Under the pieces are notes generated by a model. It was not told the DNA's origin and ran no database searches. It worked only from the letters and a program-made list of their open reading frames with translations. From Lacticaseibacillus yichunensis (GTDB lineage Bacteria; Bacillota; Bacilli; Lactobacillales; Lactobacillaceae): 33,507 bases of DNA. Of this stretch, positions 20,412 to 33,507 are shown piece after piece. The translations under genes and the position numbers were made by a program. The DNA is taken from NCBI RefSeq assembly GCF_003946405.1, contig NZ_RHOG01000032.1, forward strand, positions 1 through 33,507, read 5' to 3'. Position 1 is the first letter of the stretch, and each line of letters opens with the position of its first letter.

Positions 20412-23400
20412 TTGAATTATTCCGTAGATGATTTTCTCGCGAAAGCCCGCCAGCAGCTGGCTATCTTGCACGGCTGGTTCTACGCAGGCTTCAGTGAGGT
20501 CCCCGATCTTGAGCTGACGCCGGACACCCGCGCGGATAAGCGCTGGGAGCCGGCCGATGCGACATGGACGCCGGTGTCACTTGGCAGCAAGTGGGAAGGC
20601 CGCGACAAATATTTCTGGCTGCGTTTTTCCCTGACGGTGCCAGAGCTTGAACAAGGCGCGCACTTTGTCCTGCACATGGAATTGGGTCGCACAGGAGGCG
20701 GCGGCAATTCCGGGTTTGAGGGGCTGGTGTTTGTGAATGGCAAGCCGCGCCAGGCGGTGGATTCCAATCACGAAGATGCCTATTTTGAGGACAGTTTTGC
20801 CGGCCAGACGCTTCAAATCGCAATCAAGCTCTGGACCGGGCTGGAAGGTGGCGGCGAGCCGCAGATTCAGCATTATGTCCTGAAGGCGCTGTGTGCCGGG
20901 GTGCTGGATCAGCCGGTGGTCGATGTGTTCGATTATCTCGACAACATTGTCGGCACGGTGGCGACGCTGGGGCCGGATGAGCCGCTGCGCTATGGCTACA
21001 TGACTCTTGTGCGCCAGGCGTTTGCCCAGTTCGTTTGGGCGGAGATGACCCCAAGCACGATCGATGGCGTGGCGCAGGCGGTGCTCGGCCAGATCCATCA
21101 ATTCATCGCCAGCCATGCCGGGGAGAAAAAGGCGTACACGATCACGGCGGTGGGGCACACGCACATCGACGTCGCGTGGCTGTGGCGGCTGCGCCACACG
21201 CAGGAAAAAGTGGCCCGGTCCTTTTCGACTGTTCTGGAGCTGATGAAGGAATATCCCGACTATGTCTTTTTCCAAAGCACGCCTCAGGGTTATGCCTACT
21301 TGCAGGAAGATTATCCGGAGATGTGGGAGGAGATCCAGGCCCGCATCAAGGAAGGCCGCTGGGAGGCCAATGGTGCGACGTGGCTGGAGCCGGATACGAA
21401 TATTCCTAGTGGCGAAAGTCTGACACGCCAGTTCCTGTATGGCAGTGGCTATTTCCACCAGCACTTCAACGCCCGGCAAAATGTGTTGTGGTTGCCGGAT
21501 GTGTTCGGCTACTCGGCGGCGGTGCCGCAGATCATGCAGGGCTTTGGGGTCAAGAATTTCATGACCACGAAGATCTCGTGGAACGACACAAACCGGATGC
21601 CGCATGACACGTTTTACTGGCAAGGCATTGATGGGTCGAAGGTCTTGACGCATTTTGTCACGACGGTCGAGCCGGAAGCCGAGTTCGACAACCCGCGGGA
21701 GTGGCGATACACGTACAATGGCCTTTTGACGCCGCGGACGGTGCTGGGCACGTATCATGTGTATGCGGACAAGCCGCTGAACGACGACTTGCTGCTGAGC
21801 TATGGCTTCGGCGATGGCGGCGGCGGCCCAACGCGCGAGCAGATCAAGAATATGGCGATCATGGATGAGCTGCCGGGCTTGCCGCATGTCCGGCCCGGCC
21901 GCGTGGATGATTATTTTGACCGGCTCGATGGGAAGATCGAAGCGGCTGAGGCGGATGTCGCCACGTGGCGTGGGGAGCTGTACCTGGAATTCCATCGCGG
22001 CACGTACACGTCGCAGGCCAATGTGAAAAAGTGGAACCGGCGCGCCGAATACGCACTGCGGGATGTTGAGTTGCGGTACGCGGCGGCGCATGTCGAGCGC
22101 GGCATCGAGTACCCGACGGAAAAATTACGCGACTTGTGGATCATCTTGCTGCGGAATCAGTTCCATGACATTCTGCCCGGCTCGGCGATTCGCGAAGTCT
22201 ACGAAGATGCGGCGGTCGAGTTCAAGCAGCTGTTTGACGGTGTCGCGGAATTGCAGGCCGCATTGACCGACCAGACGACGACCAAGGCACCAGATCAGGT
22301 GACGGTGGTCAATCATTTGGCTTGGCCGCAAACGGGGCTGGTGCACTTGCCGAAGCTCGTGACCGCCAAGTTGCCAAATGGCGATTTTGCGCCGCGCGCC
22401 CAGGTCAAGGCGGGCACTGCGGTACAAGTGACAGTGCCGGCCATGGGTAGCGTGACCCTCACGCTCTCGGACGCACCGGATGAACGCGACCTTCTGACCC
22501 CGCCGCATCCGGTTCCGGCGCTTCATGTGAGCGACCACACGGCGACGACGCCATTTTACGATGTGCTGTTTGACTCAGACGGGCATCTCGTTTCGTTGCG
22601 GGACCGCGTAACCGGCCGCGAATTTCTCGACCCCAAATTGGGCGGGAACGTCCTGACGATCTACGAAGATAAGCCGCTTTATTTCGACGACTGGGATATC
22701 AATAAGGATTATCCGGACAAGGCTCAGCGGCTGGTCGCCAAGAGCTGGCGAGTCGGCGAGGAAAACGATCTTTATGCCGATTTTGAATCCAAGTATGTGA
22801 TTGGCGAGTCGACGATCAAGCAGACGATTCGCTTCTATTCAGACAAGCCGCAGATCGATTTTCTCACCCATGTCGATTGGCACGAGCGCCAGCGCCTGCT
22901 TCGGACCGCGTTCAACACCAACATCTTGGCGGACAACGCGCGCTACGACATTCAATATGGCAATGTGCTGCGGCCAACCAACGACAACACCAGCTGGGAT
23001 CAGGCGAAGTTTGAGACCTGCGCGCACAAGTGGGCGGATCTCTCCGAGCGCGATTACGGCCTGGCGCTGCTCAACGACAGTAAGTATGGTTATCGGATCA
23101 AGGACAAGCAGGTGTCGATGACGCTACTCAAGTCGGGCAATTACCCGGATCCGCACGCGGACGAAGGCGAACACGACTTCACCTATTCCTTGCTGCCACA
23201 TGACGGTGACTTCTTGGTCGGCGAGGTGGAGAAGGTGGCCAGCGAACTGAACCAGCCGCTGACTGTGAACGCCGGTGTCGGCGAAAACACGGCGGCACCG
23301 CTGTTCACCTTCACGGGCGAGCATCCGGTGGCGGTGGATGCCATCAAGCTTTCCGAAGATGGGCAACATGTCCTCGTGCGCCTGCATGATTACACCGGCG

Positions 23401-23564
23401 GGCACGAAGGGGTCATGATCCGACCGAATCAGCCGGCGAAGGCCGCTTACTTGGCGAACTTGGATGAGACGCTGGTCGATGACGGGACAGACCTGTTGGT
23501 GGATGATTGCGTGAATATCACGATGCGGCCGTATCAGATTCTGACGGTGGCCTTTGACTTTTGA
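20412..23564 (+). CDS. GH38 alpha-mannosidase (first copy)
   Basis: A 1050-residue zinc-dependent retaining alpha-mannosidase, family GH38, bacterial cytoplasmic type. After an N-terminal region of about 240 residues, the catalytic barrel carries zinc ligands in HTHIDVAW (His251, Asp253), the nucleophile Asp363 in LPDVFGYS, and another metal ligand His585 in RNQFHDILPGS; a helical bundle and beta-sandwich domains follow. It should release terminal mannose from imported oligosaccharides. The start is a TTG: AAGGAG (20399-20404) precedes it by 7 nt, and the N-terminus aligns with the second copy (DDFLAKARQQLAIL against SDFLAKATQQLHIL). Very close to the enzyme at 29186, implying a duplication. 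Confidence 0.95.
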   Translation: MNYSVDDFLAKARQQLAILHGWFYAGFSEVPDLELTPDTRADKRWEPADATWTPVSLGSKWEGRDKYFWLRFSLTVPELEQGAHFVLHMELGRTGGGGNSGFEGLVFVNGKPRQAVDSNHEDAYFEDSFAGQTLQIAIKLWTGLEGGGEPQIQHYVLKALCAGVLDQPVVDVFDYLDNIVGTVATLGPDEPLRYGYMTLVRQAFAQFVWAEMTPSTIDGVAQAVLGQIHQFIASHAGEKKAYTITAVGHTHIDVAWLWRLRHTQEKVARSFSTVLELMKEYPDYVFFQSTPQGYAYLQEDYPEMWEEIQARIKEGRWEANGATWLEPDTNIPSGESLTRQFLYGSGYFHQHFNARQNVLWLPDVFGYSAAVPQIMQGFGVKNFMTTKISWNDTNRMPHDTFYWQGIDGSKVLTHFVTTVEPEAEFDNPREWRYTYNGLLTPRTVLGTYHVYADKPLNDDLLLSYGFGDGGGGPTREQIKNMAIMDELPGLPHVRPGRVDDYFDRLDGKIEAAEADVATWRGELYLEFHRGTYTSQANVKKWNRRAEYALRDVELRYAAAHVERGIEYPTEKLRDLWIILLRNQFHDILPGSAIREVYEDAAVEFKQLFDGVAELQAALTDQTTTKAPDQVTVVNHLAWPQTGLVHLPKLVTAKLPNGDFAPRAQVKAGTAVQVTVPAMGSVTLTLSDAPDERDLLTPPHPVPALHVSDHTATTPFYDVLFDSDGHLVSLRDRVTGREFLDPKLGGNVLTIYEDKPLYFDDWDINKDYPDKAQRLVAKSWRVGEENDLYADFESKYVIGESTIKQTIRFYSDKPQIDFLTHVDWHERQRLLRTAFNTNILADNARYDIQYGNVLRPTNDNTSWDQAKFETCAHKWADLSERDYGLALLNDSKYGYRIKDKQVSMTLLKSGNYPDPHADEGEHDFTYSLLPHDGDFLVGEVEKVASELNQPLTVNAGVGENTAAPLFTFTGEHPVAVDAIKLSEDGQHVLVRLHDYTGGHEGVMIRPNQPAKAAYLANLDETLVDDGTDLLVDDCVNITMRPYQILTVAFDF

Positions 23565-29185: not shown

Positions 29186-32100
29186 ATGGAACAAAAGATC
29201 TCTGATTTTTTGGCAAAAGCAACCCAACAACTGCACATTTTGCAGGGCTATACTTACGCAAACTTCACGCCGGTCGCCGGGCTGGAACTGACGCCCGACA
29301 CGCGTGAGGACAATCGCTGGGAGCCGGAAGACGCCACCTGGTCGCCGATCGAGCAAGGCGCCAAGTGGGAAGGCCGCGATAAGTATTTTTGGCTGCGGTT
29401 CACCCTCACCGTGCCGGAGATTCCGGCTGGCGGGCATTTTGTGCTACACACGGAGCTTGGCCGCACCGGGGGCAATGGGTCCGCGTTTGAGGGCCTGGTC
29501 TTTGTGAATGGGGAGCCTCGGCAGGCCGTCGATTACAATCACCGCGATGCCTATTTTGAGGACAGTTTTTCCGGCCAGACTCTGCATGTCGTGATCAAGT
29601 TGTGGACGGGCACGGAAGGCGGCGGGGTGCCGCGCGTCCAGCATTACACCCTTGAGACGCTGGCGAGCGGCATCATCGACCAGCATGTCGTCGACGCGGC
29701 GGCTTACCTCGAGAACATCATTGAGACCATCGCCCAGCTCGGTCCGGACGAACCGCTGCGCTACGGCTACATCGCGCTGGTGAAGAAGTCGTTCCAGCAG
29801 TTTGTCTGGGCGGAAGTTACTCCGGAGAATGTCGGCGCGATCGCCGCGTCTGTGCTGGGCCAGATCCAGCAATTCATCGCGGCCCATGCCGGTGAAAAAA
29901 AGGCGTACACCATCACCGCGGTGGGGCACACGCACATCGATGTCGCCTGGCTGTGGCGGCTTCGGCACACGCGCGAGAAGATCGCCCGCTCATTTTCCAC
30001 CGTGCTAGAGCTGATGAAGGAGTACCCGGATTACATTTTCTTCCAGAGCACGCCGCAAGATTACGCGTATCTGGAAAAGGATTACCCGGATCTCTGGCAA
30101 CAGATCCAGGCCCGCATCAAGGAAGGGCGCTGGGAGGCCAATGGCGCCACGTGGCTTGAGCCGGACACCAACATTCCAAGCGGCGAAAGCTTGACCCGCC
30201 AGTTCCTGTACGGCATTGGCTACTTCAAGGAAAAATTCGGCGCGCGCCAAAATGTCCTGTGGCTGCCCGATGTTTTCGGCTATTCGGCCGCGACGCCGCA
30301 GATCATGAAGGGCTTTGGCGTCGACAATTTCATGACCACCAAGATCTCCTGGAACGACACGAACCGCATGCCGCATGACACGTTCTACTGGCAGGGCATC
30401 GATGGCACCAAGGTCTTGACGCATTTCATCACCACCGTAGACAACTGGACCAACCTCGACGACCCGAACCAGTGGACGTACACTTACAACGGCACCTTGA
30501 CGCCAAAATCCGTGCTGGGCTCCTATCACGTGTACGCCGACAAGGGGCTGAACGACGACCTGCTCGTCAGCTACGGCTTCGGCGATGGCGGCGGCGGTCC
30601 GACCCGCGAAATGATCAAAAACATGAAGATCCTCGACGAACTGCCGGGCTTGCCACACGTCAAGCCGGGCCGTGCCGATGACTATTTTGACCGGCTGGAC
30701 AAGCGCGTCGAGGCGGCGCGTGATGAGGTCGCGACCTGGCAAGGCGAGCTGTACCTCGAGTTCCACCGCGGCACCTACACCTCGCAGGCCGACGTGAAAA
30801 AGTGGAACCGCCGCGCCGAATTTGCCCTGCGCGACCTGGAACTGCGCTATTCGGCAGCCCATGTCCAACATGGCGTGGCCTATCCGACCGAGGCGATTCG
30901 CGACTTGTGGATCATCTTGCTGCGGAACCAGTTCCACGACATTTTGCCGGGCTCGGCCATTCACGAAGTCTACGAAGACGCCGCCGTCGAATTCAAGCAA
31001 CTCTTTGATGGCGTCGCGGACTTGCAGGCCAAGCTCCAGGCCGATTTCGCAACGCGGGCAACCGACCACGTCCTTGTGGAAAATACGTTGGCATGGCCGC
31101 GCACCGAGCTCGTTGCCCTGCCGGCTGGGGTCCAGGCCACGGCGGATGGCAAGGCGCTGAATGCGGTCTACACTGCCGAAAAGACGGTGGTGGCGGTCAC
31201 CGTGCCGGCGATGGGCGCCACGAGTCTGACCGTGACGGCTGCGGATGCGTCTGGTGCCGGCGCCGGAGCCACTGCGCCGGCAGCCGCCGAGCCCGCGGAA
31301 GCCGGGGCTGCTGGTTCCCTGGAAGCCGCTACGCCAAAGCAGACGGCGACCGCTGCGCCGCATACGTTGGTCACGCCTTTTTACAAGGTGACCTACGCCA
31401 AGGACGGGCGGCTTGAACAGATCCGCGACCTGAAGCATGACCGCGATCTGCTGGACGAAAGCCGTGGCGGCAACGTGCTCACACTTTTTGAAGACAAGCC
31501 ACTGACGTACGACGATTGGAACATCGATCAGGACTATCCGGAAAAGGCGACGCGCCTGGTTGCGGACAGTGTGACGGTGGGCGAGAACAACGCCTTTTAC
31601 GCGGATCTGGATCTCGTTTACACGTTCGGCGCCTCTCAGCTGACGCAGACGATGCGCTTCTATGCTGATAAGCCGCAGATCGATTTTCTCACTCATGTCG
31701 ACTGGCATGAGCGCCAGCGCCTGCTTCGGACCGCGTTCAACACGAACCTACTCGCGGACAACGCGCGCTACGACATCCAGTACGGCAACGTCGAGCGCCC
31801 GACCAACGACAACACTAGCTGGGACTGGGCGAAATTTGAGACCGTCGCGCACAAGTGGGCGGACCTTTCCGAACGCGATTATGGCCTGGCCCTGCTCAAC
31901 GACTCGAAGTACGGCTACCGCATCAAGGCCAAGCAGATTTCAATGACCTTGCTGAAGTCGGGCAACCAGCCGGACCTCCACGCAGACGAAGGCGAGCACG
32001 ACTTCATCTACTCGCTTCTGCCACACGAAGGCGACTTCCTGGCTGGCGACGTGGAAAAGACGGCGGCAGAGCTGAACGAACCGTTGCACGTTGAAAATGG

Positions 32101-32389
32101 CGTCGCGGCCCCGGCCACAACGGCGCTGTTCAACTTTGCTGCCCAGTATCCGGTTCAGGTGGATGCGATCAAGCTCGCGGAAAATGGGGCGCACGTCCTT
32201 GTCCGCCTGCACGATTACACCGGCGGCCATGAAACGGTCACCATCACCCCAACCACCGAAGCCAAGGCGGCGTTCATCGCCAAGCTCGACGAGTCCGTGG
32301 CCGACGACGCCAAGAACGTCTTGGCGGATGGCCGCGTGGAAGTGGTGTTGAGTCCGTATCAGGTTGTGACTGTGGCGTTTGATTTTTAA
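29186..32389 (+). CDS. GH38 alpha-mannosidase (second copy)
   Basis: A 1067-residue GH38 alpha-mannosidase paralogous to the enzyme at 20412 along its whole length. Zinc ligands His250 and Asp252 (HTHIDVAW), nucleophile Asp362 (LPDVFGYS) and His584 (RNQFHDILPGS) are all conserved. It differs by an Ala/Gly/Pro/Glu-rich low-complexity insert at about residues 684-730, between the helical bundle and the C-terminal beta domains, which the first copy lacks. ATG 29186 follows AAGGAG (29172-29177) by 8 nt. It lies 62 nt after the GH-D gene with no terminator between, so it is probably co-transcribed with it, and a strong terminator follows. The two copies may differ in linkage preference. Confidence 0.95.
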   Translation: MEQKISDFLAKATQQLHILQGYTYANFTPVAGLELTPDTREDNRWEPEDATWSPIEQGAKWEGRDKYFWLRFTLTVPEIPAGGHFVLHTELGRTGGNGSAFEGLVFVNGEPRQAVDYNHRDAYFEDSFSGQTLHVVIKLWTGTEGGGVPRVQHYTLETLASGIIDQHVVDAAAYLENIIETIAQLGPDEPLRYGYIALVKKSFQQFVWAEVTPENVGAIAASVLGQIQQFIAAHAGEKKAYTITAVGHTHIDVAWLWRLRHTREKIARSFSTVLELMKEYPDYIFFQSTPQDYAYLEKDYPDLWQQIQARIKEGRWEANGATWLEPDTNIPSGESLTRQFLYGIGYFKEKFGARQNVLWLPDVFGYSAATPQIMKGFGVDNFMTTKISWNDTNRMPHDTFYWQGIDGTKVLTHFITTVDNWTNLDDPNQWTYTYNGTLTPKSVLGSYHVYADKGLNDDLLVSYGFGDGGGGPTREMIKNMKILDELPGLPHVKPGRADDYFDRLDKRVEAARDEVATWQGELYLEFHRGTYTSQADVKKWNRRAEFALRDLELRYSAAHVQHGVAYPTEAIRDLWIILLRNQFHDILPGSAIHEVYEDAAVEFKQLFDGVADLQAKLQADFATRATDHVLVENTLAWPRTELVALPAGVQATADGKALNAVYTAEKTVVAVTVPAMGATSLTVTAADASGAGAGATAPAAAEPAEAGAAGSLEAATPKQTATAAPHTLVTPFYKVTYAKDGRLEQIRDLKHDRDLLDESRGGNVLTLFEDKPLTYDDWNIDQDYPEKATRLVADSVTVGENNAFYADLDLVYTFGASQLTQTMRFYADKPQIDFLTHVDWHERQRLLRTAFNTNLLADNARYDIQYGNVERPTNDNTSWDWAKFETVAHKWADLSERDYGLALLNDSKYGYRIKAKQISMTLLKSGNQPDLHADEGEHDFIYSLLPHEGDFLAGDVEKTAAELNEPLHVENGVAAPATTALFNFAAQYPVQVDAIKLAENGAHVLVRLHDYTGGHETVTITPTTEAKAAFIAKLDESVADDAKNVLADGRVEVVLSPYQVVTVAFDF

Positions 32390-32538: not shown

Positions 32539-32585
32539 TGTCCCTACCGCACACATTTTTCAACAAATTGTGTGCGGTAGGGACA
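32539..32585. repeat. Perfect 17-bp inverted repeat
   Basis: TGTCCCTACCGCACACA (32539-32555) and its exact complement (32569-32585) flank 13 bases that themselves pair TTT/AAA. No T run follows on either strand, so it does not look like a terminator. It could be a small palindromic repeat element or an operator. Confidence 0.6.
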
Positions 32586-32902
32586 CAAACTTCAAAATTT
32601 TGTGAAATTGAATCCCCGTCCCGAACCTCGTTGAGAGACACGGCGTAATTCTTTTCCTACGACAACCCGGTTCTTCGCACTTCGAGGGCCGCTTTCTTCT
32701 ATAGAAATAACGTGATCTGGCGTGACCGGTTTGCTCGGTGGGCATGGACCCGGGCCGGAATCGTCAATGCGCACAAGTGAAAGCTTCGGGCATTTTCTCG
32801 GTGGGTGACAAGACGTGCCGGTGCAATAGGACACCGGCGTGGGGGCTTCCTGGACCTATTTTCACAAAGCGCGCTTGAAAAGATGACAGAAGCGCCACGT
32901 TC
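32586..32902. other. Gene-free stretch
   Basis: I find no supportable gene here. It holds one hairpin, GCCGGTG/CACCGGC (32817-32838), without a T run, and a palindromic core AAGCGCGCTT (32867-32876) upstream of the putative small-RNA promoter. Confidence 0.5.
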
Positions 32903-32904
32903 TG

Positions 32905-32939
32905 TTCACAAAGTGTTCACACTCTCCCGTTAGTATAAT
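32905..32939 (+). promoter_or_regulatory. Promoter of the hairpin-array RNA with a PhoP-box-like repeat
   Basis: A perfect -10 TATAAT (32934-32939) has no matching -35. Instead TTCACA (32905-32910), 5 nt, TTCACA (32916-32921) forms an 11-bp-period direct repeat. The B. subtilis PhoP box is TT(A/C/T)ACA-N5-TT(A/C/T)ACA, so both units fit. Direct repeats in place of a -35 suggest activation by an OmpR-family response regulator. Confidence 0.6.
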
Positions 32940-32945
32940 AAACGT

Positions 32946-33288
32946 AGACAAGAGCTACCCCAGAAGAACAAAACTCTTGCCGCAACTTCATGAAAAACTC
33001 CTCCAATCTCGTGATACCCCCTAATATCGCGAGCGCACCGCCGGCGATCCCCCTAAGTCGCCGAGCGTGCAAACCCTTGGTCGCAAGTCCCCCTAACTTG
33101 CGACCGCCAAACCCCTGACGATCTTCGACCCCCAATCGAAGATCACGCACCACAAGCGATGCAGACCCCCTATCCGCATTCGCAACGTCGGATCACACCC
33201 CCCTAATGCGATCTGACAAAATACTCACAAGTCCCCCTAACTTGTGAACTCCTCCAAACGCCACTGGCCCCCTACCAGTGGTTTTTTT
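32946..33288 (+). ncRNA. Putative small RNA: eight hairpins with CCCCCUA(A) loops
   Basis: A predicted transcript of about 343 nt. A 5' hairpin CAAGAG/CTCTTG (32949-32979, loop containing ACCCC) is followed by eight hairpins: 33008-33033, 33042-33063, 33079-33105, 33120-33144, 33156-33183, 33187-33217, 33225-33247 and 33261-33281. Stems are 7-11 bp and differ completely in sequence, yet nearly every loop is CCCCCTA or CCCCCTAA (one CCCCCAA, one with six C). ACTCCTCCAA occurs unpaired at 32997-33006 and 33248-33257. The last hairpin is followed by T7. Constant loops on unlike but complementary stems indicate selection for RNA structure. C-rich loops are how Gram-positive regulatory RNAs such as Listeria LhrC contact G-rich ribosome binding sites; that role here is inferred. 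Confidence 0.75.
33261..33288 (+). terminator. Terminator of the hairpin-array RNA
   Basis: CCACTGG (33261-33267) and CCAGTGG (33275-33281) form a perfect 7-bp stem around loop CCCCCTA, followed by seven T residues. It is both the last array member and an intrinsic terminator. Confidence 0.85.
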
Positions 33289-33507
33289 GTGTGGTTTTTG
33301 GGGGGAGCGGGGATGCCTTGTGGTGCGGATGGTGATGAAAAAGTCGAGGGAGTCTGCAGATAGTAATTGAAGGAAAGGTACAACGGCTGAACACCGACTA
33401 CTTTATCTGCAATCAAAGAATCCTTATTGTAGTCAGTACTGAACTAGGCTGCTGACTTTGACCGTTCAGTGATGACTTTATAGTTAATTTGATATGTTTT
33501 GCCGGCT
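33289..33507. other. Window end with two imperfect inverted repeats, no gene seen
   Basis: TGCAGATA-GTA (33355-33365) pairs with TACTT-TATCTGCA (about 33399-33411), and GTCAGTACTGAAC (33432-33444) pairs with GTTCAGTGATGAC (33464-33476) with two mismatches. They may belong to a leader or operator of a gene beyond the window. Confidence 0.35.

Follow-up and report, generated by a model that had tools for sequence, protein, structure and literature searches.

An array of eight C-loop hairpins, apparently an expanded member of a seemingly uncatalogued sRNA family of lactic acid bacteria

Introduction

What is the role of an RNA that displays much the same C-rich loop on eight hairpins with largely unlike stems, and does such an RNA stand alone? 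This question is raised by a locus near the end of a 33,507-nt stretch of Lacticaseibacillus yichunensis DNA, referred to below as the window, which is an entire contig of a 2.56-Mb genome. A first-pass annotation, made from the sequence, described there eight near-perfect hairpins with one loop on unrelated stems, between a TATAAT box and a terminal T7 run, and proposed an undescribed plus-strand regulatory RNA acting either as a multivalent antisense RNA or as a protein sponge. The sequence comparisons presented here suggest that the array is an enlarged member of a multi-copy sRNA family of lactic acid bacteria that seems to be uncatalogued so far. The family is a firmer finding than the function of the eight loops, which is the more interesting question.

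Architecture of the locus

The array extends over positions 33008-33281 of the plus strand and comprises eight hairpins with self-complementary arms and C-rich loops of the CCCCC(U)A type, each with a run of five to six Cs (Table 1). Its existence is borne out by comparison with randomized sequences. Eight hairpins combine a CCCC(C/T) loop with a stem of at least 6, versus a maximum of three in 500 dinucleotide shuffles (none in 418 shuffles, one in 78, two in three and three in one), and RNAfold gives -116.8 kcal/mol for 32946-33295 (z = -9.9), a stability reached by 0 of 100 shuffles. The string CCCCCTAA occurs five times in the window, both strands considered, and always inside the array (shuffle mean 0.44, largest 2). 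The initial description nevertheless has to be qualified on several points. All eight hairpins are present, but hairpins 5 and 6 contain internal mismatches; all eight loops are C-rich, but the exact CCCCCUAA is found in only five, the remaining three being CCCCCAAU, CCCCCUAU and CCCCCUAC; and the stems are mostly unlike, except that hairpins 3 and 7 are near copies. The motif UCCC is located at the loops of hairpins 2, 3 and 7, and the terminator loop is GCCCCCUA. As to coding capacity, the absence of a credible reading frame holds insofar as no ribosome-binding site was seen by eye, but the plus strand does contain an ORF of 42 aa (32990-33118), the longest that overlaps the array.

Table 1. 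Features of the array locus, in window coordinates
Feature	Position	Strand	Basis
Direct repeat TTCACA-N5-TTCACA, presumed response-regulator box	32905..32921	+	sequence, PWM, model R2
TATAAT -10 element, without -35	32934..32939	+	sequence, sigma-70 scan, aligned in 32 members
Leader hairpin CAAGAG...CUCUUG, ACCCC in loop	32949..32979	+	fold; 5' arm and ACCCC aligned to R2
Unpaired anti-translation-start segment AACUUCAUGAAAAACUCCUCC	32985..33004	+	sequence, fold, motif scan
C-loop hairpin 1	33008..33033	+	fold and hairpin scan
C-loop hairpin 2	33042..33063	+	fold and hairpin scan
C-loop hairpin 3, near copy of hairpin 7	33079..33105	+	fold and hairpin scan
C-loop hairpin 4	33120..33144	+	fold and hairpin scan
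C-loop hairpin 5, internal mismatches	33156..33183	+	fold and hairpin scan
C-loop hairpin 6, internal mismatch, six Cs	33187..33217	+	fold and hairpin scan
C-loop hairpin 7	33225..33247	+	fold and hairpin scan
Second CUCCUCC anti-Shine-Dalgarno segment, last linker	33249..33255	+	sequence; unpaired in fold centroid
C-loop hairpin 8 (33261-33281) with T7 run (33282-33288), intrinsic terminator	33261..33288	+	hairpin and terminator scans

The left arms of the array hairpins have on average 2 of 7 letters in common. Over the seven loop-proximal positions, the two arms of one hairpin pair at 6.75, versus 2.68 when arms of different hairpins are combined. This self-pairing of unlike arms supports the view that, in the array, pairing is kept while stem sequence drifts. 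Hairpins 3 and 7 are a special case, with left arms identical at 6 of 7 letters and a sole difference consisting of one fully compensatory pair, from which we infer that they may be the trace of an internal duplication.

Upstream of the array, the promoter repeat, the leader hairpin and the anti-start/anti-Shine-Dalgarno (anti-SD) segment had been overlooked and complete the parts list. The TTCACA repeat is separated from TATAAT by 12 nt and obtains a score of 35.2 with a weight matrix (PWM) of sRNA promoters, the next best score in the window, which belongs to the training set, being -5.8. The TATAAT and T7 elements are thus present as first described, but the promoter is not of the ordinary kind: in the array promoter region, a sigma-70 scan found no promoter with a -35 box, as expected if the promoter is activator-dependent. 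Transcription would start near 32946 and produce an RNA of about 343 nt. Within it, the reverse complement of AACUUCAUGAAAAACUCCUCC contains a Shine-Dalgarno (SD) sequence and a start codon at their natural spacing, with CAU at 32989-32991 (anti-AUG) and CUCCUCC at 32998-33004 (anti-SD) separated by 6 nt. This segment was found by eye and by motif scan, the alignment of the window to the family model R2 (described below) ending at the leader loop (model positions 4-63). Taken together, structure, promoter and terminator support the proposal of a plus-strand regulatory RNA, and its multivalent character is likewise supported. Between the last large gene and the array, positions 32539-32585 form a 21-bp inverted repeat (95% complementary, 5-nt loop), an arm of which was found in 4 of 307 fetched loci, all from that same place.

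Sister species and genomic setting

Among the 60 genomes of a blastn search, the eight-hairpin form is restricted to two species. The copy of the sister species is 98% identical to the array and differs over 32946-33295 by five substitutions (one of them past the terminator) and four one-base indels; one substitution breaks a pair, and the indels remove, among others, one C from the loop of hairpin 7 and one paired base from hairpin 5. Being too similar, this copy is unusable as a test of the array stems. What the two species have in common is the array and about 217 nt upstream, both outer flanks being different (window positions 32730-33295), which implies that the locus or its neighbours have moved. 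A role as leader of a conserved downstream gene is ruled out, the downstream flank in the sister species being unrelated. A mobile or viral origin was also rejected: comparison of the array with plasmids and phages gave no match, and one scan of viral contigs with a three-loop pattern returned 65 stretches with no like array (of 66 matches folded, 54 had no such hairpin, 11 had one and one had two). Elsewhere in the window, the ORFs 20412-23564 and 29186-32389 have similar translations, alpha-mannosidase-like by eye, in an apparent carbohydrate gene cluster.

A multi-copy sRNA family

The relatives of the array were recognized by their promoter and leader. Over these parts, three further species were matched by blastn (E 1.1e-5, 0.0017 and 0.0018), and a promoter-leader pattern with at most 3 mismatches gave 52 matches in 25 of 30 genus genomes, whereas the reversed control gave 2. 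Three matches proved to be non-members (two recognized by eye, one by the same string), so that 24 of 30 genomes remain. Common to the members inspected are the box, the -10 element, a hairpin whose loop is CCACCCA-like, a segment of the type CCCAACUUUUUCAUUUUUACUCCUCCAAAGUA and a terminator; most have an additional C-rich-loop hairpin, the terminator loop is often C-rich, and a genome often contains several copies. The window itself carries the phased TTCACA-type repeat, the C-rich leader loop, the anti-AUG/anti-SD segment and the intrinsic terminator.

A sequence model of 32 members, window included (R1), has matches in 146 of 301 Lactobacillaceae genomes, and by hand count matches reaching model position 93 or beyond occur in at least 85 genomes of 12 genera, with E no worse than 6.8e-6. 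Across the wider order, matches at E 0.01 or better were obtained in 67 of 198 genomes; 17 of these are Lactobacillaceae, and the matches outside that family are mostly weak, some being of the promoter only. Since R1 and R2 span the promoter, weaker matches may indeed be promoter-only, htrA promoters among them. Visual inspection of 18 stretches outside Lactobacillaceae found the box and a UUUUCAU...ACUCC-type segment, often after AACCCUAAC, in 12; the other six comprise one with the box and CUCCUCC only (L232), three in which the box precedes a protein gene and two with neither. The window is part of both R1 and the weight matrix, so that their matches to it prove nothing, and model R2 was therefore built without it. 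Searched over 36.9 kb of sequence, R2 gives two matches only, both at E 2.4e-10: window positions 32902-32961 and the sister copy.

Loop number and loop sequence distinguish the array from its relatives. Over 84 promoter hits (loci L107-L151 left out, at least one htrA promoter included), the window has the most C-rich loops, namely eight with the sister copy merged; two hits reach four and most have two to three, a count of seven for L022 running through two tandem genes. The anti-AUG/anti-SD motif was detected in 61 of the 84 hits, with a spacing of 2-6 nt and a mode of 5. The C-rich loops of relatives are seldom exactly CCCCCUAA, canonical loops being varied (CACCCA, CUCCCA, CCCCCAA). Loops of the C4-5UAA type were found beyond the array in four genomes: G014 (L014), G006 (L015/L087), G011 (L022) and G008 (L007, terminator loop). 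Canonical sRNA genes also occur in tandem, with four model matches in 217-base steps at L101 (G216, contig C40) and four in steps of about 212 bases at L228 (G398, contig C1). At L059, the canonical sRNA of the genome that harbours the array is followed by a tandem repeat of a 126-base unit (1688-1949; 2.1 copies, 81% matches), and a similar-looking one lies near the L070 site.

Covariation in canonical members

Conservation of pairing was assessed on alignment A2, which retains 22 of the 84 promoter hits (a filter on length and motif removed 58, and four more were left out by choice). In these 22 canonical members, 92.3% of cells are paired and 17 of 25 pairs have changed on both sides; 0 of 500 shuffles reach either value, counts that are not probabilities because the members have common ancestry and the alignment tested is also the one that yielded the structure. 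Sliding the partners along the alignment as a control lowers pairing to 33-50%. In the C-loop helix, all 9 pairs have changed in both partners. Of the 7 pairs in the helix surrounding the anti-SD segment, 5 are invariant, which fits a sequence held by its targets. RNAalifold gave no consensus pair on alignment A1, which is shorter, covers promoter and leader and includes 32 of 44 member references. The view that pairing is kept while stems drift is therefore upheld by canonical-member covariation as well as by self-pairing in the array, and the relatives have kept C-rich loops and paired stems, not freely varying loops on unconserved stems.

Regulation and the link with htrA

The box of the sRNAs resembles sequences near htrA genes. 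When the sRNA-promoter weight matrix was applied to htrA loci of the genus (both strands, 600 nt), 22 of 30 scored above the highest of 900 single-letter shuffles and 29 of 30 above the 95th percentile of shuffles. The sites are mostly TTCATA-N5-TTCAAA-like and lie shortly upstream of htrA, and R2 finds 11 of the 23 htrA loci supplied at E 0.013 or better. With the plain 13-letter box consensus (up to 2 mismatches), the array's own genome gives 20 matches versus 19 in the reversed control, and htrA loci are not separable from shuffles. The link between the sRNAs and htrA hence rests on the fuller weight matrix, the plain consensus not standing out. These promoter sequences suggest that the sRNAs and htrA are under a shared response regulator. 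One regulator for htrA and several anti-start sRNAs would resemble the situation of CiaR in streptococci and LisR in Listeria.

In the own genome, a direct-repeat box of the sRNA kind is located at the htrA-like gene (L074, contig C45, 52830-52863, minus strand). None of its nine OmpR-type regulator loci has the box. An NCBIfam scan of five OmpR-type regulators identified one as YycF/WalR, on the same contig and strand as htrA and about 6.3 kb away. A search of this genome for Hfq found none, and pairing would thus need to work without it. Similar boxes precede genes other than htrA: in L223, L224 and L225 (one genus), a like box lies before a gene that by eye resembles a membrane/ABC transporter, not an sRNA, and at L062 of the own genome (contig C2, 8123-8156, minus strand) TTCACA-N5-TTCACA without a clear phased -10 lies before an MFS transporter-looking gene.

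Comparison with known RNAs

At gathering cut-offs, Rfam 15 has 0 matches in the window and yields tRNA only across 17 family loci, and an Rfam sRNA search of 13 more distant sRNA loci gave no match at E 0.01 or better. At these curated thresholds the RNA thus has no Rfam counterpart, but it is not stand-alone: it is the largest member found of a multi-copy family. The best sub-threshold Rfam matches of a canonical member are Listeria rli32 (RF01468) and Enterococcus Ref84 (RF02846), with 29.6 and 22.3 bits versus cut-offs of 100 and 52, respectively. In titles and abstract openings of open-licence papers, no description of a TTCACA-box anti-start sRNA family was found, and the accessible portion of PMC13109727 contains nothing on it. 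A study of Lacticaseibacillus casei BL23 reports 307 putative sRNAs (PMC8220740), some of which may be canonical family members.

Two groups are among the closest known RNAs. The LhrC family of Listeria (LhrC1-5, Rli22 and Rli33-1) consists of multi-copy RNAs of 105-121 nt. Their UCCC motifs, three at most and placed in loops and in a single-stranded stretch, pair with AG-rich SD regions of mRNAs such as lapB and oppA; several mRNAs may be bound per molecule, and LhrC1-5 and Rli22 are induced via a two-component system under cell-envelope stress (PMC4132741, PMC8079631). The array RNA would be longer (about 343 nt) and has nine C-rich loops instead of at most three UCCC motifs. The LisR-responsive element of lhrC5 is upstream of -53 (PMC4132741), whereas the repeat of the array would be at about -41 to -25 if transcription starts near 32946. 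Identity with LhrC was rejected, as the Rfam model has no match in 32880-33310 even at E up to 10.

The streptococcal csRNAs are described as RNAs of 51-202 nt, some with more complex structures, present in several copies per genome, with a direct repeat with N5 upstream of the -10 element and with unpaired anti-SD and anti-AUG (CAU) sequences (PMC3091779, PMC8186281). The array shares with them the repeat with N5 before -10 and the unpaired anti-SD and anti-AUG, but the csRNA box is TTTAAG-N5-TTTAAG at 10 nt from -10, versus TTCACA-N5-TTCACA at 12 nt. The kinase CiaH is reported to be absent from Lactobacillus (PMC3091779). With its other box and an Rfam score of 24.8 bits (E 0.43) versus a cut-off of 57, the csRNA model (RF02379) was discarded. 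The best reading of these analogies is that the array RNA would work like LhrC or csRNAs while belonging to neither.

Another comparison concerns architecture. CsrB and RsmZ are RNAs with many hairpins whose repeated GGA loops titrate CsrA. The array is similar in having many hairpins with one loop motif, and different in that its loops are C-rich instead of GGA and that it has an anti-start segment.

Targets and possible functions

In the own genome, TTAGGGGG-N3-11-ATG has six sites versus two in the control, including genes that by eye resemble those of a surface protein, a sugar-binding lipoprotein and an OppA-like lipoprotein. Across the 30 genus genomes, TTAGGGGG-N4-10-ATG has 272 sites versus 88 in the reversed control and is present in all 30, an excess as expected of an SD-like string. 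In the six species with C4-5UAA loops (G000, the own genome; G021, the sister; G006, G011, G014 and G008), the numbers are 6, 7, 10, 8, 10 and 8, respectively, within a range of 1-18 over the 30 genomes, in other words without enrichment. The scan suggested by the first-pass annotation, with UUAGGGGG-like start sites as the specific target set, thus failed to single out such a set, and TTAGGGGG start sites were dropped as loop-specific targets because species with such loops do not have more of them. That leaves three readings: the loops act on SD sequences more broadly, their target set is small, or they have another role. The pattern GGAGGA-N3-9-ATGAAAAAG has three matches in the own genome, one being itself an sRNA gene of the family. 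Duplex energies calculated without constraints against 17 start regions in the window gave no useful signal.

The explanation we favour, and hold to be likely, is that of a regulator-induced, multivalent, trans-acting sRNA in which C loops and the anti-start segment block ribosome-binding sites and the array is a lineage-specific expansion. As suggested by the box and its phase, a response regulator, probably that of htrA too, would bind TTCACA-N5-TTCACA and activate a promoter that has only a -10 element, presumably under envelope stress. The resulting RNA of about 343 nt would present the anti-AUG/anti-SD stretch, the second CUCCUCC in a linker and nine C-rich loops (leader plus eight). Loops and anti-SD segments would pair with G-rich ribosome-binding sites and so block translation initiation, and one transcript could hold several mRNAs. 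The stems would serve to hold the loops open under selection on pairing only, as covariation indicates for the canonical C-loop hairpin and as self-pairing supports for the array, which may have expanded from a few canonical C-loop hairpins, with hairpins 3 and 7 recording an internal duplication. A broader reading is more tentative, and we regard it as possible but doubtful: Lactobacillales would have in common a large, uncatalogued, multi-copy family of anti-start sRNAs under response-regulator control, equivalent to csRNA/LhrC, and in the L. mingshuiensis lineage one copy of it would have become a multivalent hub. The eight similar loops of this copy, on stems that drift freely, would titrate many mRNAs, or many copies of one, instead of acting as a one-to-one antisense RNA.

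One loop repeated on unlike stems is also the layout of a sponge, whose identical loops would titrate one C-rich-binding protein or a G-rich regulatory RNA, and eight copies are more than mRNA pairing seems to need. The array RNA nevertheless retains the anti-start/anti-SD segment of a pairing sRNA, and the varied C-rich loops of canonical members suit SD pairing better than one fixed protein site. We know of no candidate C-rich-loop-binding sponge protein, positive evidence for the protein sponge first proposed did not emerge, and a sponge of either kind seems unlikely. Alternatively, the expansion may be in decay, with extra hairpins multiplied by slippage that do little and a family core that alone acts. 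The presence of the eight-hairpin form in only two species among the 60 genomes, the C4 loop, broken pair and lost stem base (one each) of the sister copy and the lack of enrichment of loop target sites are in line with such a process, but decay would lose pairing, whereas unlike arms are still matched over 6.75 of 7 positions and the difference between hairpins 3 and 7 is compensatory, and we consider this quite improbable. That the minus strand is the functional one, with a short ORF behind a strong ribosome-binding site (GGAGGAG-N6-ATG, MKLRQEF...) and with G-loop hairpins, is hardly credible: 61 of the 84 promoter hits do have on that strand an ATG preceded by an SD-like sequence, but the ORFs of these 61 members, 3 to 40 aa long, have no product in common, and promoter box, TATAAT and T7 terminator are all on the plus strand.

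Significance

The family provides lactic acid bacteria, including L. zeae, L. chiayiensis and L. manihotivorans, with an apparently uncatalogued group of sRNAs that its promoter box links to htrA, and its consensus is precise enough to find further members in other genomes. Together with its relatives, the array provides a natural series, from a few to eight C-rich loops, for relating valency to the strength or breadth of repression. The role of valency has been discussed for the three UCCC motifs of LhrC (PMC8079631).
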